A stretch of DNA of 45,786 nt from a virus. Where the stretch lies: positions 1 to 45,786 of the IMG/VR virus record IMGVR_UViG_3300004279_000001. The stretch is one strand, 5' to 3'. The position numbers were made by a program, and so were the translations under genes. The notes beneath the pieces were generated by a model. It saw only the letters and a list, made by a program, of their open reading frames with translations, made no database searches and was not told the DNA's origin. Shown here one piece after another: positions 21,601 to 45,786 of this stretch (positions are counted from its first letter, which is position 1; each line of letters starts with the position of its first letter).

Positions 21601-24600
21601 AAGAAATTGCGTTAATGATCGAAGATCCTGCAGGACAAGGATATCGCTTTGTAGCATTATTAGACAATGACGAATTTGCAATGTTTAATCTTAAAGGACT
21701 AATTAGTGGTAAAACTACAGCACTTAATTTTAGTTACTATGTAAAAGACAATATTAATACAAATATTCATACACAGTATAAAATATTTACAGACGGGCTT
21801 GCAACAAGTGTGCCATCAAACGACTTACAAGAAAAATGGTTTGATAGTTTAATTGGGTATGACAAGTTTTTTAGAGATGTGCCTAACAAAGATCTATCAG
21901 AAAAGCAAAAATACGGAACATTAAACACACCTCGACAGTCGATGTTTAAGAATAAATTTGAAGCTCGTAAACAATTTTTTGAAAGAGTAAATTATGAATT
22001 AAACAAACGGATAATATTAGATGATTACGATTTATCTAATTTACTGTTAAGCGATATCGAGCCTGACTTTAAAGAAAATAAGTATGATGTAGCTATTGAT
22101 AATAATTTGCAATTAGAAACTATTAGTTTAGATAATAAAACTACAGCTGAGATATCAATAGAATTAGTTGATGGTAAAATTAATAAAGTAAAAATTACAA
22201 ATCCTGGTATTGGGTATGTAACAGCACCAAGTGTAACTATCGGAGGTGACGGACAACAGGCTGTTTTAGAAACTGAAATTACAGATGGTAAAGTAACTAA
22301 TGTTATAATCAAAAACAAAGGCAAAAACTATAATACTATTAGTGCAGTAGTTAGACCGTATACAGTTTTAATTCGAGCAGATAATACAGTAGAAAACAAA
22401 TGGTCGTTGTATAGTTATGATTATGTTGAATTTACGTGGAAAAGAATAACAGGACAGCAATATGATAATACATTATACTGGTCTTATAAAGATTGGTATG
22501 CAGCAACCGTAAGTGAATTAACATCTATTGATTACGTTGTAGAAAATAATTATGAATTAGAATTACTAAGTGATAAAATTGGTGATATTATCAAGATTCA
22601 AACTATCGGAACTGGCGGCTGGCTGTTATTAAGAAAGGTTGATAATACTAATACTGACACAAGTATTGATTATGAAACTATAGGTAGACAAAACGGCACA
22701 ATAGAATTTAATAAAAGTTTATGGGACTATAATCAGCAACAAATTGGTTTTGACTTAGAAAGTTTTGACACTCAGTTATATGATAACGAACCTGTTAGAG
22801 AATTAAGAAATATTTTAAATGCTTTGGCAAATAATATATTTGTAGATGATTTACGTCTTGAATGGAATCAATTATTCTTAGCAGGTATTCGTTATGTATT
22901 TACAGAACAGCGATATGTAGACTGGGCGTTTAAAACAAGTTTTGTAAAAGCAGAACATAGACTTGGAGAATTTGAGCAAAAAATTACATTCCAAAATGAT
23001 AATTTATCCAGCTACGAAGATTATGTACGTGAAGTAAAACCTTATAAAACTAAAATTAGAGAATATTTAAGTACATATGAAAAGGTAACTAATACAAATA
23101 CATTAGTAACAGACTTTGATCTTATGCCGTTGTTTAATCCTATTAGTGGTAAAATTGAACCTTTAAATATTAAATTACAACAAGGACAGATATTTGTACA
23201 AGAAGGAAAAGCCGACAGCGTTAATAGGAACTGGGCAAATAATGTAGGGTTTCAAGTTGAAGAAATCAACGTTTATGATGGCGGAAGAGGATATACTTAC
23301 ACACCTAAAGTTACAATAGAAAGCGTTTCGGGTACAGGCGCCGAGGCAAGAGCAATAATGCGTAACGGCGAAATTCTTAAAATTGAAGTACTAAAATCTG
23401 GCACAGGATATTTGACACAGCCACAAGTAGTTATTGAACAACCGACTGGTGAAGATGCAATTAATCCTGTAATTGTTGCACGTATTGGAACAGGACTTCC
23501 TCGAGCATTTACAAATAAAATTAAATTTGATAGAATATCAGCATTGTCAGATTACGATAGTATATCTGTTGTTGATGAAACATTTACAGGAGTTTCAAAT
23601 TCACAAATTTATAATCTTGAAAATTCTATGGATTTAAATAAAGCAAATGTTTTAGTAAAAATTGACGGTATTGAATTGTTATCAAGTGAATATACTTTTG
23701 GCAATACTACAGAAGTTGGTACTACAACATTAAGAGATACTTATGATCTTACAACTGGCAACAATTATTATAATAACTTTAATAGCTTAATAACAAGCGG
23801 TACAGATGTTGAACATGGATTTATTAACTTAACAAATACTCCTGCACAAGATAGTGTAATAACAGTTTCATATAAGAGATCAGTTGATTCGTTAAATGTA
23901 GCAGATAGAATTAGTAATTACTATAAGCCGGCTGTTGGAATGTATGGCAATGAGTTAACTCAATTAATGGAAGGTGTTGACTACGGAGGCGTAGAAGTTA
24001 CGTCATTTAACTTTGAAACAGAAAATATTGTAGGATGGGACCAAGGTGCATGGGATACAGTTGCATGGTCAACTTATACTGAAACTGGCGATGAATTTAC
24101 ATTTTTAAGTGACGGTATTACAACATCGTTTACACTACCGGAAGGATCAACACTTGAACAGGATGTAGAATATAATGTTTATATTAATAGTGTGAGAATT
24201 GACGCACCTGATTTTGTAGCAGGCACAGATGAAATTCCTGGCACAGATGAAATTCCTGGTAGTCCGGCAGATGCAGAATACAACAACGGAGCAATTAGTA
24301 ATGTTACTGGTGCCGGTAGTGATTTCTTCAAACGTGAAGTTACAACCAACGGCGTAAGAATTATGGGTGCTGGCACAGTAGGTGGGCAAACAGCAGTTCC
24401 AGATGCGTGGTTAGAAAAGGTAGCACGTATGTTTGAATTGTTTTTAGATCCAACCGGCGCAGGTATTAACGAAGCATTCCAAAGAAACTTAATTAAAACA
24501 TTAAGTGGTGATGCAGGAACTTGGCACGAAGGATTACCGACACTACAACGAGTGGCAAGAGGCGCAGGAGCAGATTATACTCCAAACTTCCTAACTGACG

Positions 24601-27600
24601 CAGGTGTTATTAGTTGGAACTTAACTCCATTGTTTGATACTCACGTTGCTAACGATATGGTTTGGTACCTGAACTCAACCGGTGACGGATACGGCGTTGG
24701 TGAGATCGACGCACAAGAAGTTATTGAACACGTATTCCACACACTACATATGCACGGTCTAACAGACGATATAAAACTGTATTCATACATTAGTGCAGAT
24801 TGGGCAACTGGTCCATTATATGCAGCAATGGAAGAAGCATTTGACGCAGGCAAGTGGGATCCATCAGGTTACCAAGCAAATCCAGATGATTGGAAAACAG
24901 ATGCAGATGCATTTGAAGTGGCAGCAAAAGAATATATGTTCTTGTTAAACTTTGCTATGTTTGATTATACTGGGCTATGGGACGGTGACAGTCTTGCTCC
25001 TGAGTGGGCAGATGATGTACGTACCCCTGCACAAATCCAAACAACACTTCCAGTAAGTTATGCGTTCTTTAATACATACATTGCTCCGGTTATTAGTAAG
25101 CCTTCATTAGCAACTATTAATAGCATATTTGGAGACGGCAATACACCAGCACAAGACGATCCAAGTTTATCAGGAGCATCAGGTTATGTTGTTGATGCGC
25201 TTGTAGGAGGAACTGACGCAGTTGCAGCTATTCCTGGTGTACCCGGAACATCGGCTACTAATGAAGATGCATTTATGCTTACGATTACAGGTAACGGTAC
25301 TAATGTATTTGAATTCCCAGATGCAGCAGAATTCCAAGCATATGTGAGTGATAAGCCTGATGCAGAAATTACTTTACGAAAAGAAACATTTGACGGAGGA
25401 ACACTACCGGATGAAACATCGTATGACACTTTATTAACGGGTGGCGATTTAGCATATGCTTCAGCAACTGGTGTTGCATCAGAAGATATTGTAATTGACG
25501 GTGACGGATTTGTTACAATAGCTACAAGTGCAGGACCTGAAGAAGTTGTTCCTGGACATGTTGCAGATACTCTTGATATAAGAGTTTACAATAGGCCTGA
25601 TGATGGCGGCAATGTAATTACTACAAGGACATATACATATACTGATACTTCTACTTTTGATATTGGGTTAAATCCGTCATCAACTGAAGGATTCATTGTA
25701 AAAATTAATAAAATTATTGTTGATAGTACAAATTATACTCTTGACTTTGCACAACGTCAAGTTACTATTACAATGCCACTTTCGGCTAACGACGAAGTAA
25801 CAATATATTCAATAAGCGGCGGCGCAAGTAATATATTAGATGTTGATAATTTTATTGCAGATGGTAGTACAAGTGAATATATTACAAATGTATTATATAG
25901 AGAAGATGCAAATGCATTAGTAACAGTAAATGGTACTGAAGTTATATTTGAAATATTTAAAACTGACAGCAGTTATGGCAGTGAAGCTAATTTAATTGGT
26001 ATTAGATTTGGTGAAGCACCAGTTGCAAATGATTATATTTATTTTGCAATAGTAGCAGGAACAACTATTCCACACTCACAAGTTAAGATACAAAACTTTA
26101 CTGGCGACGGATCATCTACACAATTTTTGTTAGAACAATTACCGTATACACTAACTACACCAGTTTACACAAATACTATTATTAATGTAGGCGATGTATT
26201 CTTAAATCAAGGATATAATAAAAAGTTTACAGTCAACAATGCATTAAACCAATATCAACTTGATGTATGGCAAATACCTACAGGAAGTTTTGATATACAA
26301 TCTGCAAAAGTGTTTGTAAATAATACATTGTTAGCTTATGAAACTGAGTTTTTATGGGACGAGACGACTAATATATTCTCACTTGTGGCAGGTACTGCCC
26401 AAGATGGCGATGATTTAAAAATCTTTATTTTAGGTGAAGAAGAATTTAGTATAGACACTACAAATAATCTAACAACATTAGTATTAGGAAGTGCAGCAGC
26501 ACTTGATACAAATATTGTAGTGTATTCATTAGGCGACGATAGAACTCAATTATTTGAAAGATTCCATTACGATATTGCAATTGATCAAAGTGTATCAACT
26601 GAATCGGCTCAATTTAAATTATATCAAAGACTAAAGTCAGGAAAGATCAAATTAAGAAATAAAGCAGCAAGTCCTGATTTTGTTTGGGTATTTGTTAATG
26701 GCATATTACAAACACCAAATCTTGATTATGTATTATCTGAAGAAATGAACGAAGTAATATATAAAGAATCATTACAATTAAATGACAAAATAGAAGTATT
26801 AGAATTTACTACTGGAGGAATTGGCCGTAGATTTGGTTATAGAGTATTCAAAGATGTCACAAATAAAACTATTTACAAACGTCTTACAGATGACAGAATA
26901 TATAAAGTAGCAAAAGATTTTAATTTTTATGATAAAACACTTGAGCTTAATACAACTGCTGGTTTACCTACACCGAGTAAAGATGAGAACATTCCTGGAG
27001 TTGTGTTTATTGAAGGCGAAAGAATAGAATACTTTATTAAGTTAGGCAACACTTTACGTCAATTACGTAGAGGAACACGAGGTACTGGTGTAGGAGAATT
27101 ATACACAGCTGATACACCAGTTACGGACCAGAGTTTCATCCATACTATTCCATATAATGATAATATAGAAGTAGTGAATGAAACAGGAGATGCTACATCG
27201 TATGAATATAACTTGCCATATGTACCTAATGTAGTATCTAATACATTGAACACATCAGCGTGGAATAGAAGTACTATACCATTAACATTTGGACAGTGTA
27301 ACGAAATAGAAGTATTTGTAGGAGGCAAAAGGTTGCATAAAGAGCCATATACAGTTTATGATGTAGTTACAAATACAAATATTACTTATGAAGCAGAATT
27401 TTCTGTTAATGGGTATAACTATGGAACACAAGGTAACCCAATGGGAAGAGTTAGATTAACTAACCCTGCAGGCGACAATACAAATGTAAAAATAGTTAGA
27501 AAAATAGGCAAAACTTGGATCAAAGATGGCGAAAAACTTTCAGATGCAAATAATTTAATAGCAAGATTTATAAGATCTACAACACAGGGACTACCCGAAT

Positions 27601-35058: not shown

Positions 35059-35869
35059 CGGAGTATTGTTATTTGCAAGTAATAATAAATCAGTTGATTA
35101 TGTAAAGCAAGCTATTTTCCTTGCTAAACGCATACGCAAGTATATGGACTTGCCCACTTCGATTGTTACGACTGACAAAGACTATAACATCGAACCCAGT
35201 GTGTTTGATAAGATCGTTTATGTTGATGATACAAAAAAGATTAATAATCGAATATATAATGATGCAGCTAAATCTATTACATTAAATTTTAAAAATAATT
35301 TACGTCCGTTGGCGTACGATCTTTCACCGTATGATAATACTTTTTTAATGGATACTGATTATATAGTTTCCAGTAATTATTTAAAAGGTTTTTTGCAACA
35401 GTATGAGGATTTTTTAATTTTTAAAGATAGCATTAATATAGGATATGAAGATAATGCTGATACGTTTAAGTACATAGGTAAAAATAGTATTGACTTTTAT
35501 TGGGCTACAGTAGTTTATTTTACTAAATCAAATAAGAATAAAGTATTTTTTGACTTATTAAAACATATACAAGAAAATTATTATAATTATGCAGTAAATT
35601 ATAACTTACAAAATACAATGTATAGGAACGATCATGCATTTAGTATTGCAATTCATATAATGAATAATTTTGGACAGTCTAATCTTTTCAAAACTTTTCC
35701 AACTCCTATAATTTATACTTTAGACAAAGAAGAATTATTAGAAATTAACGATACAGAATTAACATTATTATCTCGAAACTCAGATAAAATTAATACTGTA
35801 TTACATAAAACAAAAGACATAGATGTTCATGTAATGAATAAGTTTAGTTTAGAAAAGTTAATATCATGA
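35051..35869 (+). CDS. GT-A-like glycosyltransferase, paralog A
   Basis: A 272-aa protein. The ATG at 35051 is chosen over an in-frame TTG at 35042, because it aligns with the start of the next, paralogous gene. The fold pattern is nucleotide-sugar transferase-like: SSGVLLFASNNKSVDYVKQA at the N-terminus, then YDLSPYDNTFLMDTDYIV with a DxD motif at about residues 101-103, the metal/UDP-sugar site of GT-A enzymes. The layout resembles GT8-like phage proteins. The C-terminus has a HDHAFSIAIH-type stretch. Donor and acceptor are unknown. It overlaps the next gene by ATGA. Confidence 0.6.
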   Translation: MSSGVLLFASNNKSVDYVKQAIFLAKRIRKYMDLPTSIVTTDKDYNIEPSVFDKIVYVDDTKKINNRIYNDAAKSITLNFKNNLRPLAYDLSPYDNTFLMDTDYIVSSNYLKGFLQQYEDFLIFKDSINIGYEDNADTFKYIGKNSIDFYWATVVYFTKSNKNKVFFDLLKHIQENYYNYAVNYNLQNTMYRNDHAFSIAIHIMNNFGQSNLFKTFPTPIIYTLDKEELLEINDTELTLLSRNSDKINTVLHKTKDIDVHVMNKFSLEKLIS

Positions 35870-36720
35870 GTAAGGGTTTTCTGTTATTTGCTCAAAATAA
35901 CTCAACAACAGATTATGTGCGACAAGCATATGCATTAGCATGTAGTATAAAAGCTACACAAAAAACTCACTCTAATGTTTGTTTAATTACTGATAAAAAT
36001 GTTAGTGACAATTATTCAAAAGTTTTTGATCAAGTTATAGTAATACAGTCTGACGATGCATTAAACAGTGAATGGAAGATTGAAAATAGATATAAAATTT
36101 ATGATCTTAGTCCGTATGAAGAAACTATTGTGTTAGATACTGATATGTTAGTATTATCAGATTTGTTAGACTACTGGCATGACTTTTCAACACACGATAT
36201 TTGCTTTACTACTGATGTAAGAACATTTAGAAATAAACCTATAACAACTGGACTATGGTATTATAGAAAAGCATTTGTAAGATTTGAGCTACCTAATACA
36301 TATGTTGCACTACATTATTTTAAAAAGACAACTCTAACAAAGATGTTTGCAAAATATTTAGAAATTATTAATAAAAATTGGGAAGTAATATATGGTACAT
36401 TTACAGGTGGCAATGCTTTTCAAAAATGGGCAAGTATTGATGTTAGTGCTGCATTAGCAATTCGAGTTTTAGATATTGAAAAGGAAGTTACTCCAAAGAA
36501 TTCTGTAATTAATTTTACTCATATGAAAGTATACCATCAAGAGTTTGATAATTTGCAAAATAATTGGCAAGATTATATTACTGCTTATATGACAGACGAA
36601 TTAGAACTTTTTATTGGCAACTATAAACAAGGTGGAGTTTTTCATTATATTGAAGATTCGTTCTTAAGCGATAAAATTATAAAAAAATATGAAAAGTATT
36701 TGAATTATGCAGAATTATAA
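35866..36720 (+). CDS. GT-A-like glycosyltransferase, paralog B
   Basis: A 284-aa paralog of the preceding protein: SKGFLLFAQNNSTTDYVRQA at the start, then IYDLSPYEETIVLDTDMLVL with DxD at residues 91-93, and a conserved INFTHMKVYHQEF near the C-terminus that may supply the His ligand seen in GT-A enzymes. Two adjacent diverged copies suggest two successive sugar additions or two acceptors. It starts in an ATGA overlap with paralog A and ends 14 nt inside the next gene, so all three are probably translated together. Confidence 0.6.
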   Translation: MSKGFLLFAQNNSTTDYVRQAYALACSIKATQKTHSNVCLITDKNVSDNYSKVFDQVIVIQSDDALNSEWKIENRYKIYDLSPYEETIVLDTDMLVLSDLLDYWHDFSTHDICFTTDVRTFRNKPITTGLWYYRKAFVRFELPNTYVALHYFKKTTLTKMFAKYLEIINKNWEVIYGTFTGGNAFQKWASIDVSAALAIRVLDIEKEVTPKNSVINFTHMKVYHQEFDNLQNNWQDYITAYMTDELELFIGNYKQGGVFHYIEDSFLSDKIIKKYEKYLNYAEL

Positions 36721-37282
36721 AAAGAGAATTTCCTATCTAAATAAAATTAATAATAAAGTACCTATCTGGTATTGCGAATATGATAGCAAGTCTAACGATA
36801 TTATATGTTTTACAACAATTGATAATAAAACATCTACACGAATTGAAGTTTCACATGACACTGCAATGAAGTTTAATAGTGGAGAAAAACATTTATATCA
36901 ATATTTTGTCAATGTTGACAGTAATGCTGTTGAAATTAAACAACAGTTTTTAAAGCCTAAAACAACAAACTTTTTTGAAGTAATACAACAAACAGATATA
37001 TGTGATATTATAATACAAAAGGACTACAAAAACAACAAGTGGAAATTTAGTTGTAATAATGTTGAGAACAACATTGACGGATCATTACATTTCAGCATTA
37101 CTCAGAAAGACAACCCAAATTTGCTATATAGAAGTATAACCATTTCTGTAAATGAGATAACTGATAATACTGTAGAAGTTGACTTTACAGAACACGATAA
37201 AAACACTAAAGACTATAGTGTGTTCACAGTTAAAAAGTTTCAATCGTATACATTAGAGGAAAAACATGCATCAAACACTTAA
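36707..37282 (+). CDS. Hypothetical protein, 191 aa
   Basis: Not recognised. Lys/Asn-rich, with alternating beta-strand pattern (VPIWYCEYDSKSNDIICFTT, TRIEVSHDTAMKF, GSLHFSITQKD, VEVDFTEHD). No membrane segment, Cys cluster or catalytic signature stands out. It is sandwiched, with overlaps of 14 nt upstream and 17 nt downstream, between the GT-like genes, so it probably serves the same process, perhaps as a partner or binding protein. Confidence 0.55.
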   Translation: MQNYKKRISYLNKINNKVPIWYCEYDSKSNDIICFTTIDNKTSTRIEVSHDTAMKFNSGEKHLYQYFVNVDSNAVEIKQQFLKPKTTNFFEVIQQTDICDIIIQKDYKNNKWKFSCNNVENNIDGSLHFSITQKDNPNLLYRSITISVNEITDNTVEVDFTEHDKNTKDYSVFTVKKFQSYTLEEKHASNT

Positions 37283-38882
37283 AGTAAAAGATTTAGATAT
37301 AATATATCTATCTTACGATGAACCAAACGCAGAAAAAAATTATGAAGACTTACTTACAAAAGTGCCTTGGGCAAAGCGTGTACACGGAGTAGAAGGCAGC
37401 GATGCCGCACACAAAGCATGTGCTAAACTTAGTAATACAGATCGATTTATTACTATAGACGGTGACAACATAATTAATCCTAAGTTTCTGCAAGAAGAAA
37501 TATATTTCTATGATGGTGCAGATATCGACAAGGCTGTTATTAGTTGGACTGCTAAAAATTCAATTAACAATTTAATGTATGGTAATGGCGGCATTAAGTG
37601 TTGGCCAAAATCTCATGTTTTAAATATGCAAACACATGAAAATGCTGAACCAGATAATGTCAAAGCACAAGTCGATTTCTGCTGGGACATGGAGTACATA
37701 CAACAAGATACTTGTTATTCGATGATAATGAATAATTATACTCCTCATCAAGCGTGGCGTGCTGGGTTTCGTGAAGGGGTTAAGATGGCACTCAACGAAG
37801 GAACACAACTATCTAAAGACGGATTGTTATCTCAACATTGGAAAAATCTAAATAGACTCTATATTTGGACAATGGTCGGCTGCGATACTATAAACGGCGA
37901 CTGGGGAATACTTGGGGCAAGAGCAGGTTTGTATATGGCTATGTGTACAGATTGGGATTTTATACAAGTAAGAGATTTTGAACATTTAAACGACTTATGG
38001 AAACAGTCCTTTGAATCGATTGAAAACGTTGAAGATGAAATTGTTGAATACGGTATCAAACTCATTAATGCACTTGATCTTCCAATTGCTGAAAATCCGT
38101 TATCAGCTCAACAGAGTAAATTCTTCAAAACAGTGTATCGAAACCCTCCAAGATTAATATCGCCTAAAGTTGTCAAAGCATCTCCAGTAGCAAAAACAGA
38201 ATACGATATTGTAATGATAACATATAACGAAGAATATATGAATCAAAACTACAAGAGATTATTAGAAAGATTTCCTTATGCAAAGCGTATACACGGAGTA
38301 GATGGAATTCATAATGCACATATAAAAGCAGCAGAGCTATGCACAACTGATATGATTTGGATAGTTGACGGTGATGCTGTTATTGACGACGATTTTAATT
38401 TTAACTATGCAGTTCCTAAATGGGATTTAGACACAGTGCATGTATGCAATAGTAAAAATCCTATTAATGATTTAATTTACGGTTATGGTGCTATTAAACT
38501 ATTTCCGAGAGAACTTACTCTTAATATGGATAAGTCTAAGCCGGATATGACTACAAGTATAAGTAATAAATTTAAAAAAGTATACGAAATAAGTAATATT
38601 ACTGAATTTAATACAAGTCCGCTAAACACTTGGAAAAGTGCATTTAGAGAATGTTGTAAACTTTCAAGCAAAGTAATAGACAGACAAAAAGACGACGAAA
38701 CAAACGAACGATTAAATATTTGGTGTACAGTTGGCAACGACAGACAATACGGAGAATATGCAATCGATGGTGCCAACGAAGGCAGAAAATACGGAGAATA
38801 CTATCGTGATTCACTGCAAGATCTGCGTAGAATAAATGATTTTATGTGGTTAGAGGAGAGATTTAATGAGCATTACAAATAA
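37266..38882 (+). CDS. Tandem-duplicated GT-A-like glycosyltransferase
   Basis: A 538-aa protein made of two homologous halves. Half 1 (residues 10-290) has IIYLSYDEPNAEKNYEDLL, WAKRVHGVEG and FITIDGDNII (DxD-type motif 65-67). Half 2 (about 312-538) has IVMITYNEEYMNQNYKRLL, YAKRIHGVDG and IWIVDGDAVIDD (368-370). Both halves keep NSINNLMYG/NPINDLIYG and a later WxxxFRE segment, so both may be active or one may bind acceptor. The overall look is of a GT2-like transferase. GAGGAAAA precedes the ATG, which overlaps the previous gene by 17 nt. Confidence 0.6.
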   Translation: MHQTLKVKDLDIIYLSYDEPNAEKNYEDLLTKVPWAKRVHGVEGSDAAHKACAKLSNTDRFITIDGDNIINPKFLQEEIYFYDGADIDKAVISWTAKNSINNLMYGNGGIKCWPKSHVLNMQTHENAEPDNVKAQVDFCWDMEYIQQDTCYSMIMNNYTPHQAWRAGFREGVKMALNEGTQLSKDGLLSQHWKNLNRLYIWTMVGCDTINGDWGILGARAGLYMAMCTDWDFIQVRDFEHLNDLWKQSFESIENVEDEIVEYGIKLINALDLPIAENPLSAQQSKFFKTVYRNPPRLISPKVVKASPVAKTEYDIVMITYNEEYMNQNYKRLLERFPYAKRIHGVDGIHNAHIKAAELCTTDMIWIVDGDAVIDDDFNFNYAVPKWDLDTVHVCNSKNPINDLIYGYGAIKLFPRELTLNMDKSKPDMTTSISNKFKKVYEISNITEFNTSPLNTWKSAFRECCKLSSKVIDRQKDDETNERLNIWCTVGNDRQYGEYAIDGANEGRKYGEYYRDSLQDLRRINDFMWLEERFNEHYK

Positions 38883-39765
38883 AGAATTTTTACATGGATT
38901 ACAAGAATATAGTGAATTTAAGACAGAAGGTTCGGTTGCACGAAATGTAAAATCTTTCTTAGATATCCTATATGCAGAGGATCAAAAGTCTGCTTTTGTT
39001 AATCATTTCTTACCAAAAGATCTTGCAAATATTTACGGATCTGATAATTTTGAGCAAGACCTTATTGTATATCTTTTAAATAATTATGAAGGCAACGATA
39101 CTCGTTATTTTAGATTTATTAAGGACTTTATCAAAAAAGATAAAGACATGAATATACTCTCAGATGCATTAAGTAGAAGCCAAATCAAGAGTAAGATATG
39201 GTTAGTAAATGAGCTTGAAAAAATATCTAATCATTATGGCAATGTTGTACTATTAGCTGGTTGGTACGGACAGTTAGTTGAGTTGTTTGGAGATAGTGTA
39301 GACAAGATTACATTTAAAAAATTTAGAAACGTTGAAATTGATATAGATGCATGTAATGAAAGTGACTATAATTTTAACTTACGTCGAATAGATGATTACA
39401 AAGTAAAATCTATACACGGCGATATTAATAATCTTAATCTGCACGGAAGCGGATATCAGTGGGACGTAGAAAATTTTAAAACTGAAGAAAAATATAATGA
39501 GCAATTTTACCCAGACCTAATTATAAACACAAGTGCTGAACATATGACAACTGAATGGTTTAATCAAATTAGATTTAACCCTTGGAAAGATCATAAACCT
39601 ATTGTTGCTATACAAAGTAATAATTATTTTGACTTAGAAGAACACGTAAATTGCGTACATAGTATTAATCATATGAAAAAACTATTTCCTATGAGTAAAA
39701 TATTATATGAAGGTGAATTACAACTTAAAGGTTATAAGAGAGTTATGTTGATCGGTGAAGCATAA
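38866..39765 (+). CDS. SAM-dependent methyltransferase-like protein
   Basis: A 299-aa protein. Residues 1-120 are a helical N-terminal part. Residues 125-137 read YGNVVLLAGWYGQ, resembling the glycine-rich motif I of class I methyltransferases, followed by VEIDIDAC (about 156-163) where the acidic ribose-binding residue is expected. Then come HGDINNL (about 184-190) and DLIINTSAEHM (near 218-228) as motif IV-like. Substrate unknown; a sugar or peptide is plausible from the neighbours. The match is by motif layout only. GAGGAG precedes the ATG; the TAA shares a base with the next ATG. Confidence 0.5.
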   Translation: MSITNKEFLHGLQEYSEFKTEGSVARNVKSFLDILYAEDQKSAFVNHFLPKDLANIYGSDNFEQDLIVYLLNNYEGNDTRYFRFIKDFIKKDKDMNILSDALSRSQIKSKIWLVNELEKISNHYGNVVLLAGWYGQLVELFGDSVDKITFKKFRNVEIDIDACNESDYNFNLRRIDDYKVKSIHGDINNLNLHGSGYQWDVENFKTEEKYNEQFYPDLIINTSAEHMTTEWFNQIRFNPWKDHKPIVAIQSNNYFDLEEHVNCVHSINHMKKLFPMSKILYEGELQLKGYKRVMLIGEA

Positions 39766-40439
39766 TGAAACGAATACTATGTATCGGCGACAGTCATACT
39801 GCTGGACATAATAGACGCACTAACGTATCTGGCCCTGACGATATTGTAACTCCTAAGAATTGGTCAGCCTATTTACAAAAAACATTTCGTAATTCAGAAG
39901 TTTGGAATTTATCATTATCAGGTTCAAACAACTTTTTCTCTGGTATAATACTTGATAGTTTTTTAGAAACTTATACTCCTGATGTAGTAATTTATCAGAT
40001 ATCTGATCATAGAAGATTTATAAAAATAAAACGTACAACTAAATTAAATTTATTAGAAAGTACAAATTGTGTTGCTCCTAATTATTATGCATTACAAAGA
40101 CGACCTTTCCCCTTTGGAATGATGGTTAGTCCACAGAGCTTTTCATCTGCATCACGTAAAGAGATAATTCGGCTGTATACAGCGTTATCTGATGACGACA
40201 TTGTATATTTAAATAGTATTGCAGTAGAAAGGAATCTTCTAAAATTACAGAATATTCCACATTACGCATTTTATTGGCGCAAAGAAGATGCTGTTATTAC
40301 AGGCTACGACAGTGTAGATGATATATTAGGATCACAATTTCATAGTTTTGTTGAAGACAACGGATGTCACTTAAATACTACAGGACACGGACTTGTTTAC
40401 AATAACATTATTCATACAAAGGTAGTAAACTTACTATGA
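39765..40439 (+). CDS. SGNH/GDSL hydrolase-like protein 1
   Basis: A 224-aa protein. Block I is ILCIGDSHTAGHN with putative nucleophile S10. The block II/III-like segment is NLSLSGSNNFF. Near the C-terminus comes NGCHLNTTGHGLVYNNI with the block V His. SGNH enzymes act as esterases or acyltransferases on sugars, lipids or peptidoglycan. The Asp three residues before the His in classical DxxH is not in that place (an Asn is), so the triad may be modified. No signal peptide is seen, so it likely acts in the cytoplasm. It overlaps the next gene by ATGA. Confidence 0.65.
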   Translation: MKRILCIGDSHTAGHNRRTNVSGPDDIVTPKNWSAYLQKTFRNSEVWNLSLSGSNNFFSGIILDSFLETYTPDVVIYQISDHRRFIKIKRTTKLNLLESTNCVAPNYYALQRRPFPFGMMVSPQSFSSASRKEIIRLYTALSDDDIVYLNSIAVERNLLKLQNIPHYAFYWRKEDAVITGYDSVDDILGSQFHSFVEDNGCHLNTTGHGLVYNNIIHTKVVNLL

Positions 40440-40663
40440 TAGATTTAAAAGATCTCCCTGTTAGGGAATTACAAAAAGAAAGTGCAAGAGCTCTAAGTAC
40501 AATACAAGCAACTAACAATAATATTTGGCAGTTTAATAAAAAAGCTCATCACAATAGTCATAATTGGTATTGTGCTGTAATAGACTGGTATATTGATCAA
40601 TATGGAGATTTGCCCAGTAAAGCAGGCCCTGGTAAAGATGTAAAATTGGTGTTAGATGTATGA
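40436..40663 (+). CDS. Small hypothetical protein, 75 aa
   Basis: Not recognised. It is real judging from ATGA overlaps at both ends and tight fit. The N-terminal half is a charged helix (LKDLPVRELQKESARAL); the middle has KKAHHNSHNWYCAVIDWY; the end is DLPSKAGPGKDVKLVLDV. It contains one Cys and several aromatic/His residues. It could be a structural or regulatory partner. It is also the only small protein inside the radical SAM/SGNH stretch and therefore the only obvious candidate substrate peptide encoded here; that is speculative. Confidence 0.55.
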   Translation: MIDLKDLPVRELQKESARALSTIQATNNNIWQFNKKAHHNSHNWYCAVIDWYIDQYGDLPSKAGPGKDVKLVLDV

Positions 40664-41292
40664 GAAAAAATGTATTCTGTTTTGGATGCAGCTTTACTAA
40701 CGGTATCCATTTTGCCCAAAAAGACTGGAGAGCTTCATATCCGTATCAGCTATCTCTACTCATGCCGGACGTAGATGTTTATAATCTTGGGGTATCTGGT
40801 GGAAATAATATACTGAATGATATGATAATAAAAAAAGCACTTGAGGAGTATTCCGTAGATTTTTCTATTGTACAGTTTACATTTCCAAATAGATTTTATA
40901 TTTCGTTATCTGATAGTTCTGAAAAAATAGGTATTAGGTACGGGGTTAAGCAGCTAAGTGATAATTATTACTTGTTATCCAAAGAGTACATAGCAGAATA
41001 TTTTAATATTTTTACGCCAAGCTACTTGAAAAGCAATGTTCAAAGGATTAAGCAACTGTATAAATTACTACCAAAAAGACAAATAGCTCATATAAATGAA
41101 ACAGCTTATTTGTCAACATTATATAGATTAAAAGACTTGCATCATTATACTTGGTCTTGGAACGAAGACACGTTAGGCACTAATGTAGTACCTAATAGCC
41201 TAAAATTAGAAAAATTTGATGACGGTACTGGACATTTGACTCAAAAAGGTAATCGGGTACTTGCAGGCTATTTAAAAGGTGAAATAGCATAA
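40660..41292 (+). CDS. SGNH hydrolase-like protein 2
   Basis: A 210-aa protein. Block I is VFCFGCSFTNG (Ser in GCSF in place of GDS), the Gly block is NLGVSGGNNIL, and the C-terminal block is DDGTGHLTQKGNRVLAGYL with the putative catalytic His. The Cys replacing Asp before Ser is common in divergent phage SGNH proteins. As in its paralogs, no standard DxxH is present. Start ATGA overlaps the 75-aa gene and the stop abuts the radical SAM ATG with no gap. Confidence 0.65.
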   Translation: MRKNVFCFGCSFTNGIHFAQKDWRASYPYQLSLLMPDVDVYNLGVSGGNNILNDMIIKKALEEYSVDFSIVQFTFPNRFYISLSDSSEKIGIRYGVKQLSDNYYLLSKEYIAEYFNIFTPSYLKSNVQRIKQLYKLLPKRQIAHINETAYLSTLYRLKDLHHYTWSWNEDTLGTNVVPNSLKLEKFDDGTGHLTQKGNRVLAGYLKGEIA

Positions 41293-42375
41293 ATGTATAG
41301 ATACGAAGACATCAAAGAAGTACACTTAGAAATTACGCAAAAGTGTCAAGCGGCCTGTCCTATGTGCGATCGTAACATGAATGGCGGAGATGATAATCCT
41401 CATATTACAAATGCAGAACTTAGTTTAGAAGATGCAAAAAGAATGTTTAGTCCTGCTTTTATAAAGCAATTAAATGTTATGTATATGTGCGGCAACTTAG
41501 GAGATCCTATTGTTGCTAAAGATACGCTTGAAGTATTCAAATATTTCCGCGAACATAACGATAAGATATGGTTGAGCATGAATACTAATGCTGGAGCCAA
41601 GAGTGCTGAATGGTGGACAGAACTTGCAGGAGTTATTGGTCGCAAAGGAGCAGTAATTTTTAGTGTAGACGGTTTAAAGGATACAAATCATTTATATCGA
41701 CAGAACGTTGTTTGGAATAATGTTGAACGTAACATGCGAGCATTTATTAATGCTGGAGGCAGAGCCCGTTGGGACTTCTTAATTTTTGCACACAATGAAC
41801 ATCAAGTAGATGAAGCAGAAGCACTTGCTACTCAGTGGGGATGTGAAAAGTTTATCAAGAAAAAATCAGGTAGATTTATTACAAGTGATATTAAACCTAA
41901 AACATCTCATCAAGCAATAAATCGTAAAGGGGCTGAAACACAAAACTTAGCACAGCCTAAAGATGAAAAGAATAAAAACATAGCACTACTAAAACAAAAA
42001 GAAATTGAAAAGTCTTATGGTAGTATGAAAGAGTATTTAGATAAGTGCAGTATTACTTGTAAAGTTGCAAACCAAGGAAGTATTTTTGTAACAGCAGAAG
42101 GACTTTTAATGCCGTGTTGTTGGACTGCTGGACGTATGTACAAATGGTGGCATGCAGATCCCCGTGTAGAACAGGTATGGGATCATATAGATAATGCTGG
42201 CGGAAAACAAGGCATAAGTATTATAGACAATGACATTAAACACGTGGTTAATGGAAAATTAATAGATAGTATCACTGCAAGTTGGCAAAAAAATAGTATT
42301 GCTGACGGAAAACTTGGCGTTTGCGCTCAAAAATGCGGTAGTGAATTTGACCCGTATAAGGAGCAATTTGTATGA
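41293..42375 (+). CDS. Radical SAM protein with SPASM-like C-terminal domain
   Basis: A 360-aa protein. CQAACPMC near the N-terminus (C18, C22, C25) binds the 4Fe-4S cluster and SAM. CGNLGDP and FSVDGLKD mark the partial TIM barrel. The C-terminal part holds further Cys: CSITC near 252-256, PCCW near 274-277 and CAQKC near 344-348, a SPASM-like auxiliary cluster site. SPASM enzymes modify peptides (RiPPs), proteins or sugars by radical chemistry; which applies here cannot be told. It abuts SGNH 2 upstream and overlaps SGNH 3 by ATGA downstream. It is a fused counterpart of the split pair at 43081-44101. Confidence 0.8.
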   Translation: MYRYEDIKEVHLEITQKCQAACPMCDRNMNGGDDNPHITNAELSLEDAKRMFSPAFIKQLNVMYMCGNLGDPIVAKDTLEVFKYFREHNDKIWLSMNTNAGAKSAEWWTELAGVIGRKGAVIFSVDGLKDTNHLYRQNVVWNNVERNMRAFINAGGRARWDFLIFAHNEHQVDEAEALATQWGCEKFIKKKSGRFITSDIKPKTSHQAINRKGAETQNLAQPKDEKNKNIALLKQKEIEKSYGSMKEYLDKCSITCKVANQGSIFVTAEGLLMPCCWTAGRMYKWWHADPRVEQVWDHIDNAGGKQGISIIDNDIKHVVNGKLIDSITASWQKNSIADGKLGVCAQKCGSEFDPYKEQFV

Positions 42376-43088
42376 TATACGTAGGCGGCGACAGCTATGC
42401 ATATGGATCAGAATTATTAGATATATCAAATCGTTTTGGTGATATTGTATCAGATGCTATGGGAACAACAAATCAAAACGATGCAATAGGCGGCGCAAGT
42501 AATCAAAGAATTTACCGTAAATTTTTTGAAGCGTTTGATCCTAATAAATTTTCACATGTAATTTTAGGATGGACTGGCCTAAACAGATTTGAACATTATT
42601 CTGTCTTTGATCAAGATTATGACGGTTATAGAAGAATAACTGCACATCGATTACTTCCTTCTAACAAACATGAAGATTACATAGATGAAAAACTTAGAAA
42701 AAGAATCGCAAAATTGCGAGATGATGTAAAGGTATCTAAAGAAAATAAAGTATTATTGCAGTACATGGCTAATGTACGTACTGACAGAGTTATACATGCT
42801 GAAATTTTAAATATGATACTGCAAGTACAAAGGATGTGTAAATATACTGACACAAAATTATGCATGTTTTTTGGAGTACAGAATAATATCATAAAATTCA
42901 ATGAATTAATAACAGATCATTTAATGTACAATAGTGTAGACTGGAATGATACATGGCTTTATCAACCAGATTATTCTTTACAGGAATGTATGAATGATTT
43001 AAAATTACCAATAGGCCCAGGGAAACACTTTTTAGAAGAAGGCCATCAAGTTGCTGCTGACAAAATATTGGAGCATTTTAGTGTCTGA
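42372..43088 (+). CDS. SGNH hydrolase-like protein 3
   Basis: A 238-aa protein. It starts MIYVGGDSYAYG (putative nucleophile S8), continues with AIGGASNQRI as the Gly/Asn block, and ends with PIGPGKHFLEEGHQVAADKI, where the His of block V is kept but the Asp of DxxH is not. It is closely related to SGNH 4 at 44103, even at DNA level over the first 36 nt, so the two are paralogs from a local duplication. The stop overlaps the preferred GTG start of the next radical SAM gene by 8 nt. Confidence 0.65.
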   Translation: MIYVGGDSYAYGSELLDISNRFGDIVSDAMGTTNQNDAIGGASNQRIYRKFFEAFDPNKFSHVILGWTGLNRFEHYSVFDQDYDGYRRITAHRLLPSNKHEDYIDEKLRKRIAKLRDDVKVSKENKVLLQYMANVRTDRVIHAEILNMILQVQRMCKYTDTKLCMFFGVQNNIIKFNELITDHLMYNSVDWNDTWLYQPDYSLQECMNDLKLPIGPGKHFLEEGHQVAADKILEHFSV

Positions 43089-43716
43089 TAAATGTTTTCA
43101 ACTTTCAATCTCAACGTATTGTCAAGCTAAATGTCGTAGTTGCTTACGTACCAATAGCGAAACAGGTGAGCCGGAAGATTGGCTTACGCCTACACATATG
43201 AGCGTAGAAGCAGTACAAAATTTAGTATCTGGCGATTATTTTAAAAAGAACAAACTGGGATATTTACTTCTTTGCGGAGAATTAGGTGATCCAATGATGC
43301 ATCCTAATATAGATAAAATTTTAGATATTACTCTTGCTGTTGTTCCTCGAGTAGAACTTTCGACAAACGGCGGCCTGCGTCAACCAGAATGGTATGCAAA
43401 GACAGCGCAAAAATATGGAAGTCGTATTCATATTAAATGGGCAATAGACGGCACTGACCATGAGACAAATTGGAAATATAGAGAAGGTGTTGACTATTAT
43501 CGAGCAATGGATAATATGAAAGCATGGATTGAAAACGGTGGTAACGGTGATTGGCATTATTTAATTTTTGAGTGGAACTGGAAACAAGTAAAAACAGCTA
43601 AACAAATAGCTAAAGATATAGGGATTGAAATACTATTTAAAATAAACAACAGGCCGTTTGGGTTAATTGATCCACTTCATAAACGTAAAGTAATGGAGGA
43701 ATTGACCAATGGCTAA
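43081..43716 (+). CDS. Radical SAM core protein (SPASM part encoded separately)
   Basis: Starts with GTG at 43081 (211 codons), favoured over an in-frame TTG at 43051 because GGAG at 43070-43073 is spaced 7 nt from it and the overlap with SGNH 3 is then short. CQAKCRSC (C14, C18, C21) is the SAM-cluster motif. CGELGDP and the AIDGTD segment match the barrel of the radical SAM protein at 41293, so the two are paralogs. The protein stops at 43716, just where the paralog continues into its SPASM-like part. The next ORF supplies that part in another frame, overlapping by 8 nt. Confidence 0.75.
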   Translation: MSDKCFQLSISTYCQAKCRSCLRTNSETGEPEDWLTPTHMSVEAVQNLVSGDYFKKNKLGYLLLCGELGDPMMHPNIDKILDITLAVVPRVELSTNGGLRQPEWYAKTAQKYGSRIHIKWAIDGTDHETNWKYREGVDYYRAMDNMKAWIENGGNGDWHYLIFEWNWKQVKTAKQIAKDIGIEILFKINNRPFGLIDPLHKRKVMEELTNG

Positions 43717-44101
43717 ACAGCAAAAGATTATGTGTATGTTTCATGATGGCGCTCGAAGTGAATACGATATAACTGTTGACGGTAGAGTGTGGCCGTGTTG
43801 TAAATTTGTAAATGTAATAACAAAGATCGAAGCCGGATTGCAAAAAAAAGGTGCTCTTGACGGAGACGACTATTTTTTTAAATTACAAAAAGATGACCCT
43901 AATTGGAATAGTTTAGAACATCATTCATTAGACGAAATATTAGATCATGATTATTTTTCTACATATGTAAACAATGAAGGATGGGAAAGTGGAAACACCA
44001 GCGTATTGTGTAAAAAACGATGTACGGCAAATATGCACCAAGACGGAACTTATACATATGTAGCAGATACAAGTAACAAAATACATAAGAGGATAAAATA
44101 A
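43709..44101 (+). CDS. Stand-alone SPASM-like domain protein
   Basis: A 130-aa protein with Cys pattern C9, C30-C31 (VWPCCKF) and C101/C105 (LCKKRC), matching the C-terminal half of the radical SAM protein at 41293 (PCCW, CAQKC). It therefore looks like the auxiliary-cluster domain of the preceding gene, separated by a frame change. It has its own ATG and a GGAGG about 9 nt upstream, which argues for true gene fission and a two-part enzyme; a single-base sequencing error or programmed frameshift is the alternative. It is followed 1 nt later by SGNH 4. Confidence 0.65.
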   Translation: MAKQQKIMCMFHDGARSEYDITVDGRVWPCCKFVNVITKIEAGLQKKGALDGDDYFFKLQKDDPNWNSLEHHSLDEILDHDYFSTYVNNEGWESGNTSVLCKKRCTANMHQDGTYTYVADTSNKIHKRIK

Positions 44102-44102
44102 A

Positions 44103-44852
44103 ATGATATATGTAGGCGGGGACAGTTATACATACGGAATTGAATTAAATAATCCTCTGAAAGGTCGATATTCTTTTTTGATGCAACAAAAATTAAAAAT
44201 GTCTGTAGTAAATGATTCTTGGGGCGGAGCAAGTAATGACAGGATAGCCAGAAAATTTTTAGAGTTTATGAGCGGTCATAAAGTAAAACCTGACTTGGTG
44301 TTTATTATGTGGGCTCCTATTACAAGATCAGAGCAGTATGCTCCTGAGGAGGATATGTGGGAGGAAAGAGACGGATTTAGACAAGTAAGATCGCCTGATA
44401 TTTTTTTACCTGCCAAAGGTAAGCCGACAAAAAAACAACTACACTGGCGCCGATCTCTTAGTCAGTTAAGTGCTACGCAAAAATGGTGGCTTAATATATT
44501 TGACCAAAAAGGAGCAATTGATAGTTATATTAGAAATATAATGATAGTTCAAACTGTTTGTCGTGCAGGAAATATACCGTTTATTATGACTAATTGTAAT
44601 TCTTCAATGACACTCAAACAACTTGATGATTTTGTAAGTCGTAATAGAAAAGTAGAAAACTACACACAACAACGAGTAAATCTCATTGATAGTAGTAACT
44701 GGTTATTTGATAAAACATGGTCTTTTGCTGAATGGGCAAAAGATAACGAATATCCAATAGGTCCACAACATCATCCGTTAGAGGAAGCACATATAAACTT
44801 TGCTAATATATTAACAGACAAAGTTAAGGAGAGATTAAATGCCTCCGATTAA
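44103..44852 (+). CDS. SGNH hydrolase-like protein 4
   Basis: A 249-aa paralog of SGNH 3: MIYVGGDSYTYG at the start (putative nucleophile S8), SWGGASNDRI as Gly/Asn block, FIMWAPITRSEQY, and PIGPQHHPLEEAHINFANIL near the C-terminus carrying the putative catalytic His. No signal peptide. It lies between the SPASM-like ORF and the last radical SAM gene, overlapping the latter by 14 nt. The repeating rSAM-SGNH order suggests each SGNH protein works with a particular radical SAM partner. Confidence 0.65.
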   Translation: MIYVGGDSYTYGIELNNPLKGRYSFLMQQKLKMSVVNDSWGGASNDRIARKFLEFMSGHKVKPDLVFIMWAPITRSEQYAPEEDMWEERDGFRQVRSPDIFLPAKGKPTKKQLHWRRSLSQLSATQKWWLNIFDQKGAIDSYIRNIMIVQTVCRAGNIPFIMTNCNSSMTLKQLDDFVSRNRKVENYTQQRVNLIDSSNWLFDKTWSFAEWAKDNEYPIGPQHHPLEEAHINFANILTDKVKERLNASD

Positions 44853-45786
44853 ATGCTTCTTTGCAAAAAATGCAATTAATTACAAGCCCAATGATAGAAT
44901 AACTGCGTGTCCCAGAGGTCACGGATCTTTGGCTAAAATTAGTGACTCGGTAAAACCAAGTGATTTTTTAAATAACGAAGGATTTAGAAATCTTAGGAAA
45001 ACTTTACAAGATGGTGAATGGGATACATCGCATTGTGATACTTGTATGGAAAGAGAACAACGAAATATCACAAGTATGCGTCAAAACATTAATTCTGAAT
45101 TTAATCCTAACACTAAAATTAATGCAAACGGCAAAGTGCGTTATAGAGAATTAAAATTTATAGAGCTTAGATTCAGTAATACTTGTAACTTATGCTGTTT
45201 GCATTGTGGCCCCGATTACAGCAGTCAATGGGCATCACTTATAAAAAATAATCCCTTACAAAAAGATGACGTTGCTCATAATATTAGAGGATGGGTTAAT
45301 CCGAGTAAAAATACAAATTGGACAAGTAAGCAAGTAAGAGACTTTGTAGAAGACTTAAATAGAAACTTTCCAAATGTTGAAAGATTTGATATTGCCGGCG
45401 GCGAGCCATTGTATCAAAAACAATTTTGGCTATTTTTAGATTTAATAAAAGACCATCCTAACATAAAACGTATGACTATTAGTATTACTTCTAACTTTAA
45501 TGTTGACATTAATTATAAAGATTTTGCTAAAAAACTTAATAAATTTAAATGTGCAAATGTGCGAATAAGTTTAGATGCTGGAAAAAACTTGTACGATTAT
45601 TTTAGAGGCGGCAGCTGGGAAAAAGTAGAAGACAATATAAAACAGTTTAACAAAACCAGAAGGAATACACAATTAGAGGTTACAAATACAATCGGAGTTC
45701 ATCAAATTTTAGATCTTGAGGATGTAATTGTAAGTATGTTAGAACTTCCGGTTGACAAGTTACATCATAGTATTATACAATATCCT
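44839..45786 (+). CDS. Twitch-domain-type radical SAM protein, C-terminus off right edge
   Basis: ATG at 44839 with AAGGAG (44826-44831) seven nt upstream; the reading frame is open to the window edge (316 codons). Residues 20-70 have ITACPRGHG and HCDTCMERE (C66, C69), the N-terminal twitch-like Cys region of this subgroup. Then comes NTCNLCCLHCGPDYSSQW with CxxxCxxC at C116, C120, C123. Barrel motifs follow (FDIAGGEPLY, ISLDAGKN). It is a different radical SAM subgroup from the two upstream. The product chemistry is unknown. It is translationally coupled to SGNH 4 by a 14-nt overlap; the operon continues beyond the window. Confidence 0.78.
   Translation, partial: MPPIKCFFAKNAINYKPNDRITACPRGHGSLAKISDSVKPSDFLNNEGFRNLRKTLQDGEWDTSHCDTCMEREQRNITSMRQNINSEFNPNTKINANGKVRYRELKFIELRFSNTCNLCCLHCGPDYSSQWASLIKNNPLQKDDVAHNIRGWVNPSKNTNWTSKQVRDFVEDLNRNFPNVERFDIAGGEPLYQKQFWLFLDLIKDHPNIKRMTISITSNFNVDINYKDFAKKLNKFKCANVRISLDAGKNLYDYFRGGSWEKVEDNIKQFNKTRRNTQLEVTNTIGVHQILDLEDVIVSMLELPVDKLHHSIIQYP

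Follow-up and report, generated by a model that had tools for sequence, protein, structure and literature searches.

What does a virus do with a run of genes in which SGNH-like proteins alternate with radical SAM (rSAM) enzymes? We followed this question at positions 39765-45786 of a virus stretch of 45,786 nt (IMGVR_UViG_3300004279_000001; the whole stretch is hereafter the window). Our results suggest that the locus forms the left edge of a tailoring island of radical SAM enzymes, set in the tail-fibre/host-recognition region of a contractile-tailed marine phage. We infer that the island decorates a surface or virion glycoconjugate, and give this reading a probability of roughly 0.42.

The genes concerned all lie on the plus strand. 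The conserved cassette begins with GT538 (37266..38882), which contains two glycosyltransferase-2-like repeats (PF00535 E 7e-5, 23.2 bits, just below the cut-off of 23.3), followed by p299 (38866..39765), which is class-I methyltransferase-like by motif, lacks a Pfam match at E-values up to 1 and has a homologue annotated 'putative methyltransferase' in the cultured Pelagibacter phage Mosig EXVC030M. Next are SGNH1 (39765..40439), a fast-evolving candidate SGNH-like hydrolase/acyltransferase; p75 (40436..40663), a very conserved 75-aa protein with three predicted helices; SGNH2 (40660..41292), a paralogue of SGNH1; rSAM1 (41293..42375), a radical SAM protein with a fused C-terminal twitch/SPASM-like domain; SGNH3 (42372..43088), DUF6071/SGNH-like and a paralogue of SGNH4; rSAM2a (43081..43716), a radical SAM core without an auxiliary-cluster domain; rSAM2b (43709..44101), a separate twitch/SPASM-like auxiliary-cluster piece that overlaps rSAM2a by 8 nt; SGNH4 (44103..44852), also DUF6071/SGNH-like; and rSAM3 (44839..45786), an N-terminal-twitch radical SAM gene that is cut by the window end and encodes 404 aa in contig L001. 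All nine ORFs from SGNH1 to rSAM3 are present, in the order originally described. From GT538 to rSAM3 the junctions measure, in order, -17, -1, -4, -4, 0, -4, -8, -8, +1 and -14 nt (negative values are overlaps); the tight packing claimed for SGNH1 to rSAM3 thus holds, with junctions of -14 to +1 nt. We corrected the rSAM2a start to GTG 43081 (211 aa), which is more likely than TTG 43051 (221 aa); it leaves an 8-nt overlap with the SGNH3 stop, and the Mosig homologue is also 211 aa long.

The window truncates a larger island. A longer contig, 99.95-99.98% identical, contains 15 PF04055 matches, i.e. 12 beyond the window's three, and there rSAM3 is the first in a run of further rSAM genes. Among the 24 contigs searched, this one included, there are 3-20 such matches per contig. 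We found 234 stretches with rSAM1 and compared the best 80 of 234, which left 30 non-redundant islands once loci at least 90% alike at rSAM1 were dropped; the fetched stretches extend up to 8 kb per side, some less, and family searches covered 20 to 32 loci, mostly the longer contigs and sometimes a few other records. In the 30 islands, rSAM genes account for 152 of 393 genes (39%). The heavy viral investment in these enzymes noted at the outset is borne out, and is unusual.

Comparison of the islands shows a set of recurring posts, namely a GT538-like protein, p299, p75, rSAM1 and, outside the window, a 468-aa N-twitch rSAM; the genes that lie between these posts or follow them are exchangeable cargo. 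A homologue matching GT538 over half its length occurs in 15 of the 29 other islands (median 59%), and p299 is present in all 29 (median 36%). Conservation is highest in p75 and rSAM1, both fixed posts, and in the 468-aa enzyme (medians 73-83%), and the remaining tested rSAM genes reach medians of only 23-36% identity. The 59-90% identity of rSAM1 across the 29 other islands is biased upward, because the loci were themselves found by rSAM1 and the set was cut to the best 80 of 234. The slot between p75 and rSAM1, filled by SGNH2 in the window, varies in content: it is empty in 7 of 24 cases and holds a UDP-sugar dehydrogenase in L057 and L080. Most of the cargo consists of more rSAM enzymes; there are also some SGNH-like proteins, and enzymes such as nitroreductase, TauD, PP-loop-like and carbamoyltransferase proteins are scattered among them. 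One scan of cellular-genome contigs returned three loci, each from a metagenome-assembled genome that carries a phage-like island, so there is no cellular pathway from which to borrow a function.

With a PF04055 cut-off of 29.5, rSAM3 (48.6) and rSAM2a (33.5, obtained on the 221-aa reading) belong to the radical SAM superfamily by score; rSAM1, with CxxxCxxC at residue 18, scores 27.3, below the cut-off, and belongs by fold (Z as high as 16.6 against solved rSAM structures). rSAM1 and rSAM2a are paralogues (31%, 3e-23). Although truncated, rSAM3 scores 195.6 bits against the NF033640 N-twitch cut-off of 170, which many downstream enzymes also pass; this family name gives neither reaction nor pathway. 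The rSAM1 model matches SuiB, BlsE and SkfB (Z 16.6-15.6), and BlsE is top in one fold comparison and tied with peptide enzymes in another. As in BtrN, BlsE, DesII, SuiB and PqqE, an rSAM barrel is combined with an auxiliary Fe-S domain (identity is low, 11-17%). BtrN, BlsE and DesII carry out radical reactions on sugars, and the BlsE match makes sugar-type chemistry a possible activity of the modelled rSAM1 fold.

The genomic setting is consistent with a glycoconjugate substrate. Tail-collar and virion families lie just upstream of the island, and a relative of window positions 35866-36720 has a weak GT8 match, below cut-off. The original description of a split rSAM is right, and the locus does lie next to tail fibres and glycosyltransferase-like genes. 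The Mosig island sits between tail-fibre genes and VrlC; its rSAM genes have as neighbours an annotated sugar aminotransferase, a carbamoyltransferase and a p299-like methyltransferase, and Mosig also encodes proteins resembling glycosyltransferases by eye. In Vibrio phage K566, genes for N-twitch rSAMs and for proteins that resemble glycosyltransferases by eye are interleaved, with an annotated PagP nearby. On the preferred reading, glycosyltransferases would assemble a glycan or glycoconjugate, either on the virion (tail fibres) or on the host envelope. Its sugars or side chains would next be oxidised, dehydrated, epimerised or coupled by rSAM enzymes, and SGNH proteins, as optional cargo, might add or remove acyl groups. 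The core would make a common modification and the cargo would diversify it, which could help against superinfection, receptor loss or host defences. Against this reading stand glycosyltransferase matches that fall under curated cut-offs, the scarcity of nucleotide-sugar enzymes (epimerase and UDP-sugar dehydrogenase each occur in 3 of 22 records, and carbamoyltransferase in 4 of 20 phage contigs) and the rSAM1 fold, which matches the peptide-modifying SuiB, SkfB, AnSME and PqqE as well as sugar enzymes. A sugar-nucleotide pathway in every island was rejected because such enzymes are too sparse.

The peptide-like side of the rSAM1 fold, which resembles RiPP maturases, leads to a doubtful but serious alternative: p75 could be the ribosomal substrate or carrier of rSAM1 and the 468-aa enzyme, with the variable rSAMs acting on other phage proteins. 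p75 is found in 27 of the 32 records searched, is 64-80% identical to 19 aligned homologues and conserved along its whole length, has none of its five changes nonsynonymous and directly overlaps rSAM1 in several lineages. It also mostly co-occurs with the 468-aa enzyme: of the 49 loci whose flanks are long enough, 37 carry the two genes together, four neither, six p75 only and two the rSAM only; the three of the eight one-only loci that were rechecked (L001, L018 and L020) proved complete elsewhere in the record. On the other side, p75 appears from its model (pLDDT 84) to be a folded three-helix protein and shows no leader/core contrast, the rSAM1 model opens almost at the barrel without an N-terminal recognition domain, and five records that share a similar gene order (G024 and G030-G033) keep rSAM1 without p75, so the co-absence may reflect a single event. 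The p75 fold had no match with E below 0.001 among PDB and viral models. The glycan reading would fit p75 only as an adaptor.

Less probable is a multi-radical assembly line, in which p75 would be carrier or substrate, rSAM1 and the 468-aa rSAM would make a common product and some 15 or more exchangeable rSAMs would diversify it, several of them as obligate two-protein enzymes with the auxiliary Fe-S cluster on a separate subunit; we regard this as unlikely. It is also quite unlikely that unrelated pathways have simply piled up in a recombination hotspot without a common substrate. The divergent, exchangeable cargo would suit such a hotspot, and in one contig pair the dS of rSAM1 (0.31) lies above that of its neighbours (0.07-0.13), which suggests a mosaic history; the closely packed, mostly co-oriented gene run, the 39% share of one enzyme superfamily and the recurrence of core genes argue against it.

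We then considered the SGNH-like proteins, for which it had been proposed that each SGNH-rSAM pair performs linked steps on one substrate. Their assignment as SGNH proteins is putative and rests on motifs and paralogy. SGNH1 and SGNH2 are 25% identical (2e-15), and SGNH3 and SGNH4 27% (5e-22), with E-values that refer to a 12-sequence database. Against PF13472 (cut-off 32.9), SGNH1 (20.7 bits, E 6e-4) and SGNH4 (21.8 bits, E 3e-4) both score below the cut-off and SGNH2 and SGNH3 have no match in the Pfam search, so none of the window proteins belongs to SGNH/GDSL by this score; across 24 contigs, five have PF13472 matches and none above the cut-off. SGNH3 (E 0.006) and SGNH4 (E 1.4e-4) match PF19547, also below cut-off. 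In 59 SGNH relatives one His is 100% conserved and the block I Gly and Ser are 98% each; only the His counts as independent support, because the set was filtered for the GxS motif (carried by 157 of 162 before the filter). Ser and His align in each of the four window proteins, with Gly and Asn columns assigned by alignment alone, and an Asp near the His seems absent from the SGNH3/4 sequences. A profile comparison of SGNH1/2 with SGNH3/4 gave a probability of 53% (E 1e-4), which does not establish one family, and SGNH profiles found nothing useful among PDB sequences. dN/dS is 0.60 for SGNH1 (L001 against L002), 0.88 for SGNH2, 0.23 for SGNH3 and 0.32 for SGNH4.

The gene order in the window speaks for such pairs, as does local linkage elsewhere: the order rSAM2 - SGNH - N-twitch rSAM is kept in L018/L019, and core - piece - SGNH is common to Mosig and L153. 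Against this, label shuffling in the 30 non-redundant islands places adjacency at chance level, with 10 of 13 detected SGNH genes touching an rSAM gene against 8.6 +/- 1.7 expected (p = 0.31; variants of the test 0.16-0.88; 0.155 and 0.538 with two motif-based SGNH candidates added). An SGNH gene was detected in 9 of the 30 islands and none in 21, by phmmer closure, which may miss divergent members. With BLAST at E 1e-5, the other 29 islands contain no SGNH2 homologue and a single homologue each of SGNH3 and SGNH4 (24-28% identity). Elsewhere, only 1 of 38 SGNH3/4-like loci has an adjacent rSAM, and 13 of 38 have an adjacent second SGNH. Together these results largely amount to the outcome that the original prediction had named as evidence against itself. 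In a small SGNH1/2 scan, 4 of 7 loci outside the window lineage have SGNH beside an opposite-strand rSAM. Alternation as a conserved pattern was rejected for the 30 islands, and dedicated two-step pairs are very unlikely; what stands of the original prediction is the investment, the split and a probable surface or virion substrate.

Highly improbable is a role in host metabolism (heme, molybdenum cofactor or Fe-S metabolism), as database names imply. There are weak NirJ, AhbD and MoaA model matches, molybdenum cofactor annotations on some Mosig genes, a Baltic Sea study that counts 261 ahbD auxiliary metabolic genes (PMC9301287) and an Fe-S metabolism reading, tied to an A-type carrier gene, of the rSAMs in the T4-like environmental genome TARA_ERS488813_N000010 (PMC5332604). 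However, the NirJ, AhbD and MoaA scores lie far under curated cut-offs, the island adjoins tail fibres, and the carrier family gave no match in our records. Neither PF01521 nor PF01592 matches in the 21 rSAM1 contigs (PF01521 in 0 of 24 records; PF01592 in 1 of 24, Phage C48C1, outside those 21), so Fe-S supply by the phage through these two families was rejected and the enzyme set would rely on the host for clusters. If our reading is right, it calls into question surveys in which genes of this kind are named ahbD or moaA.

The rSAM2a/2b split was labelled a core and a 'SPASM piece'. The separate piece stands; the SPASM label does not, as rSAM2b scores 16.7 bits against PF13186 (cut-off 21.5) and has five Cys (C-x~20-CC...CxxxC). 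The canonical SPASM motif has seven Cys and two auxiliary clusters, and one-cluster twitch-like appears to be the better label for this Cys pattern. Unlike in BtrN, BlsE, DesII, SuiB and PqqE, the auxiliary domain of rSAM2 is a separate protein. Such enzymes come from adjacent, mostly overlapping genes, one for the core and one for the auxiliary-cluster protein, and the split recurs in several lineages, cultured Mosig among them; the Cys pattern and junction of rSAM2b are shared with pieces of other lineages. A Cys-rich piece follows 13 of 16 short rSAM cores (the 13 include some near copies); of the other three, L037 is a likely frameshift and two precede another rSAM. In one comparison, short cores lacking a recognised partner (28, or 5 after thinning) were set aside. 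Both halves look constrained (dN/dS 0.15 for rSAM2a and 0.05 for rSAM2b). A frameshift or assembly error within one gene, for which fused homologues (352 aa in L018) and the likely breakage of L037 beside intact L038/L039 could be cited, is barely credible given the identical split in L001-L003 (contigs with different sample numbers), its presence in Mosig, in L153 and, with a 44% identical rSAM2a relative, in L152, the start codons at the junction and the dN/dS values. If the split enzymes are real, they would allow the role of the auxiliary cluster to be tested by subunit mixing.

Phage genomes with multiple rSAM genes are already mentioned in passages of PMC5332604 and PMC7029224. The former reports 12 radical SAM genes in TARA_ERS488813_N000010, which likewise has many in one marine phage, and its section on this genome discusses no arrangement, core or substrate. 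The latter briefly mentions pelagimyophage rSAM cassettes in a host-recognition cluster, similar to ours in that they occupy a hypervariable region next to tail fibres, together with glycosyltransferases (candidates in our case); our own comparison with that cluster, a variable region downstream of VrlC, finds the tail-fibre neighbours and rSAM cassettes, and glycosyltransferase matches below cut-offs. Different from that brief account are the rSAM matches, as many as 20 in a contig, the recurring p75-rSAM1-468-aa core and the split enzymes. Passages on glycosyltransferases in PMC7824862 and PMC12619734 contain no 'radical SAM'. In the open-licence literature we found no earlier description of the fixed core or of the split enzymes, and our literature search recognised no stand-alone SPASM partners; a fixed gene core with two-protein enzymes is unusual. 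If confirmed, marine phages would hold a very dense natural radical SAM collection, with a fixed core and exchangeable cargo beside host-recognition genes, and phage surface or virion chemistry would be a new place to seek radical tailoring. Mosig shares the order rSAM core - separate piece - SGNH and the p299-like methyltransferase and, unlike the window island, is richer in annotated sugar-type genes; at the E-value limits used, searches of it found neither p75 nor the 468-aa rSAM. Structural proteins of pelagimyophages group with Pelagibacter/cyanobacterial myophages; the baseplate protein (gp6-like) here is nearest to those of jumbo myoviruses among the matches listed: these 15 of 76 records, the other 61 including some cyanophages, comprise Salicola, Sinorhizobium, Agrobacterium, Xanthomonas and enterobacterial jumbo phages at 33-35%.

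The island at the right end of the window (39765-45786) is truncated by the window end. Its gene positions agree with the original prediction in an open reading frame check. rSAM2a, a radical SAM (rSAM) core, more likely starts at GTG 43081 (43081..43716). Three pairs of paralogues are present: SGNH1/2 and SGNH3/4, all SGNH-like proteins, and rSAM1/rSAM2a. A longer contig (G001), 99.95-99.98% identical to the window, carries further rSAM genes beyond it, with 15 PF04055 matches in 84.6 kb. PF04055 matches occur in all 24 contigs selected among 80 rSAM1 loci (the best 80 of 234), at 3 to 20 per contig, and NF033640 scores above its cut-off in 20/20 contigs versus 0/14 control genomes. One island gene (L083:14036-15544) encodes a B12-type rSAM protein, whose best NCBIfam match is PhpK-like (60.5 bits versus a cut-off of 600). 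The window takes in the whole of its virus record (45,786 bases), which is classed as linear. Its matches to families of the late sigma factor, the baseplate, the tail lysozyme and the tail collar mark it as a contractile-tailed phage; the 15 matches listed for its gp6-like protein are jumbo myoviruses (33-35% identity; 61 further records matched). A single 4,998-aa open reading frame spans 12606-27602, upstream of the tail-fibre genes.

The island has a recurring core, measured here as the best homologue in each of 29 other islands. rSAM1 is found in 29/29 at a median of 73%, an identity biased by the use of rSAM1 itself as locus finder with the best loci kept, and p75, a 75-aa protein, in 23/29 (median 74%). 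The 468-aa N-twitch rSAM beyond the window (reference L083:3752-5158) has some rSAM homologue in 29/29 (median 83%), and one of at least 50% in 19 of them. The glycosyltransferase-2-like GT538 recurs in 15/29 (59%) and the methyltransferase-like p299 in 29/29 (36%), while the remaining rSAM genes tested have medians of 23-36%, a few of them with a single close relative. SGNH2 has no homologue in the 29 other islands, and SGNH3 and SGNH4 have one each. The slot between p75 and rSAM1 holds exchangeable cargo: it is empty in 7/24 islands, contains an SGNH gene in 5/24, and elsewhere contains PP-loop-like, nitroreductase-like, UDP-sugar dehydrogenase, rSAM or unknown genes (labels partly by eye). 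That the island is a hotspot without common purpose seems improbable.

p75 is present in 27/32 records searched; the five in which it was not found (G024 and G030-G033) are all alike in gene order. Among 49 loci with enough flank, 37 carry both p75 and the 468-aa rSAM, six p75 alone, two the rSAM alone and four neither, the status of single-marker loci L002, L003, L019, L021 and L047 being taken from the flank only. The 468-aa rSAM lies further along the contig in L001 and L018, and p75 of L020 was recovered by six-frame search. In p299, short N-terminal repeats (about 20 aa) vary in number (e.g. L004:4129-7797 and L074:6247-8001), and several loci, such as L004-L017, encode a p299-glycosyltransferase fusion of about 1,000-1,200 aa. 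Phage-like islands with p75 and rSAM1 also occur in the metagenome-assembled bacterial genomes MED685, CE-Jul18-66 and MED657 (L154, L155 and L156), probably as mis-binned phage contigs.

Some rSAM enzymes are split into two genes. A short core was defined as a complete rSAM with <230 aa beyond the motif; a cysteine-rich piece follows it in 13/16 rows, near copies among them. Core and piece overlap by 8 nt in 7/13 cases, or 9/13 if an inner ATG is used in L025 and L090, and the other junctions vary (a 13-nt gap in L152). A C...CC...CxxxC pattern is common to 10/13 pieces and differs in those of L010, L016 and L052. On a 52-row tree, the main split label takes three changes, or four when the second kind is included. 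A single clade of the seven split rows was rejected (p-AU 3e-9), although long branches and re-fusion may play a part. The rSAM gene of L037 is broken into 208 + 115 aa and is intact in the near twins L038 and L039; in contrast to the real splits, this break is likely a frameshift.

The original prediction held that SGNH and rSAM genes alternate, each pair performing linked steps on one substrate. This pairing is not borne out, and the alternation is at the level expected by chance. Across 30 islands <90% alike at rSAM1 (rSAM share 152/393 genes), 10 of the 13 detected SGNH genes, spread over 9/30 islands, touch an rSAM gene, versus 8.6 ± 1.7 when labels were shuffled within islands (p = 0.31); with motif candidates included, or with a narrower region, p ranged from 0.16 to 0.88. 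Outside the islands, 38 SGNH3/4 relatives have an adjacent rSAM gene in one case and an adjacent SGNH gene in 13, with any rSAM within the fetched flank in seven. Counter to chance, however, the order rSAM2-SGNH-N-twitch rSAM is preserved in L018/L019, and a core-piece-SGNH order is common to the cultured Pelagibacter phage Mosig and L153. An SGNH1/2 scan of loci outside the window's lineage found rSAM beside SGNH in 4/7, on the opposite strand.

Between L001 and L002, a single pair compared with our own Nei-Gojobori script and small counts, dN/dS is 0 for p75, 0.08 for both rSAM1 and rSAM3 (the N-twitch rSAM at the window end), and 0.15 and 0.05 for the split halves rSAM2a and rSAM2b (the auxiliary-cluster piece). 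Values are 0.23 for SGNH3 and 0.32 for SGNH4, and higher for SGNH1 (0.60) and SGNH2 (0.88). At rSAM1 (window 41293-42375 versus L002), dS is 0.31 compared with 0.07-0.13 in its neighbours, which is a sign of recombination there.

The island's place beside the tail-fibre genes is observed, as are its core, its exchangeable cargo and its split enzymes. We infer, with a probability of about 0.4, that the island encodes a tailoring line, which would act on a virion or envelope glycoconjugate. Classical sugar-nucleotide genes are sparse in the window's relatives, which speaks most strongly against a simple sugar pathway. The rSAM1 model (pLDDT 79) matches SuiB, BlsE, SkfB, AnSME, MoaA and PqqE all within Z 16.6-15.2, DesII at 14.5 and BtrN at 13.9; the fold thus favours neither sugar nor peptide. 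A less favoured possibility is that p75 is a peptide substrate. Its model (pLDDT 84) consists of three helices with no significant match in structure searches. No p75 match was found in Mosig or Vibrio phage K566.

Among earlier reports, one T4-like genome carries 12 rSAM genes (PMC5332604), and rSAM cassettes lie in the host-recognition cluster of pelagimyophages (PMC7029224). In two jumbo-phage papers the term 'radical SAM' is absent from the text; the fixed core, split enzymes and arrangement did not appear in the open-licence literature searched.

As regards the tailoring line, the Mosig island is flanked by tail-fibre genes and VrlC, and runs from rSAM core, piece and SGNH to an aminotransferase, a further rSAM-motif gene, a carbamoyltransferase and a p299-like methyltransferase. 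K566 has the N-twitch rSAM layout in four genes, three of them annotated as rSAM, interleaved with putative glycosyltransferases (by eye) and with an annotated PagP near. Molybdenum cofactor annotations in Mosig (MT647606.1, 61562-66149) cover the rSAM1/rSAM2a relative Mosig_00084 as well as Mosig_00083, which by eye is not rSAM-like.
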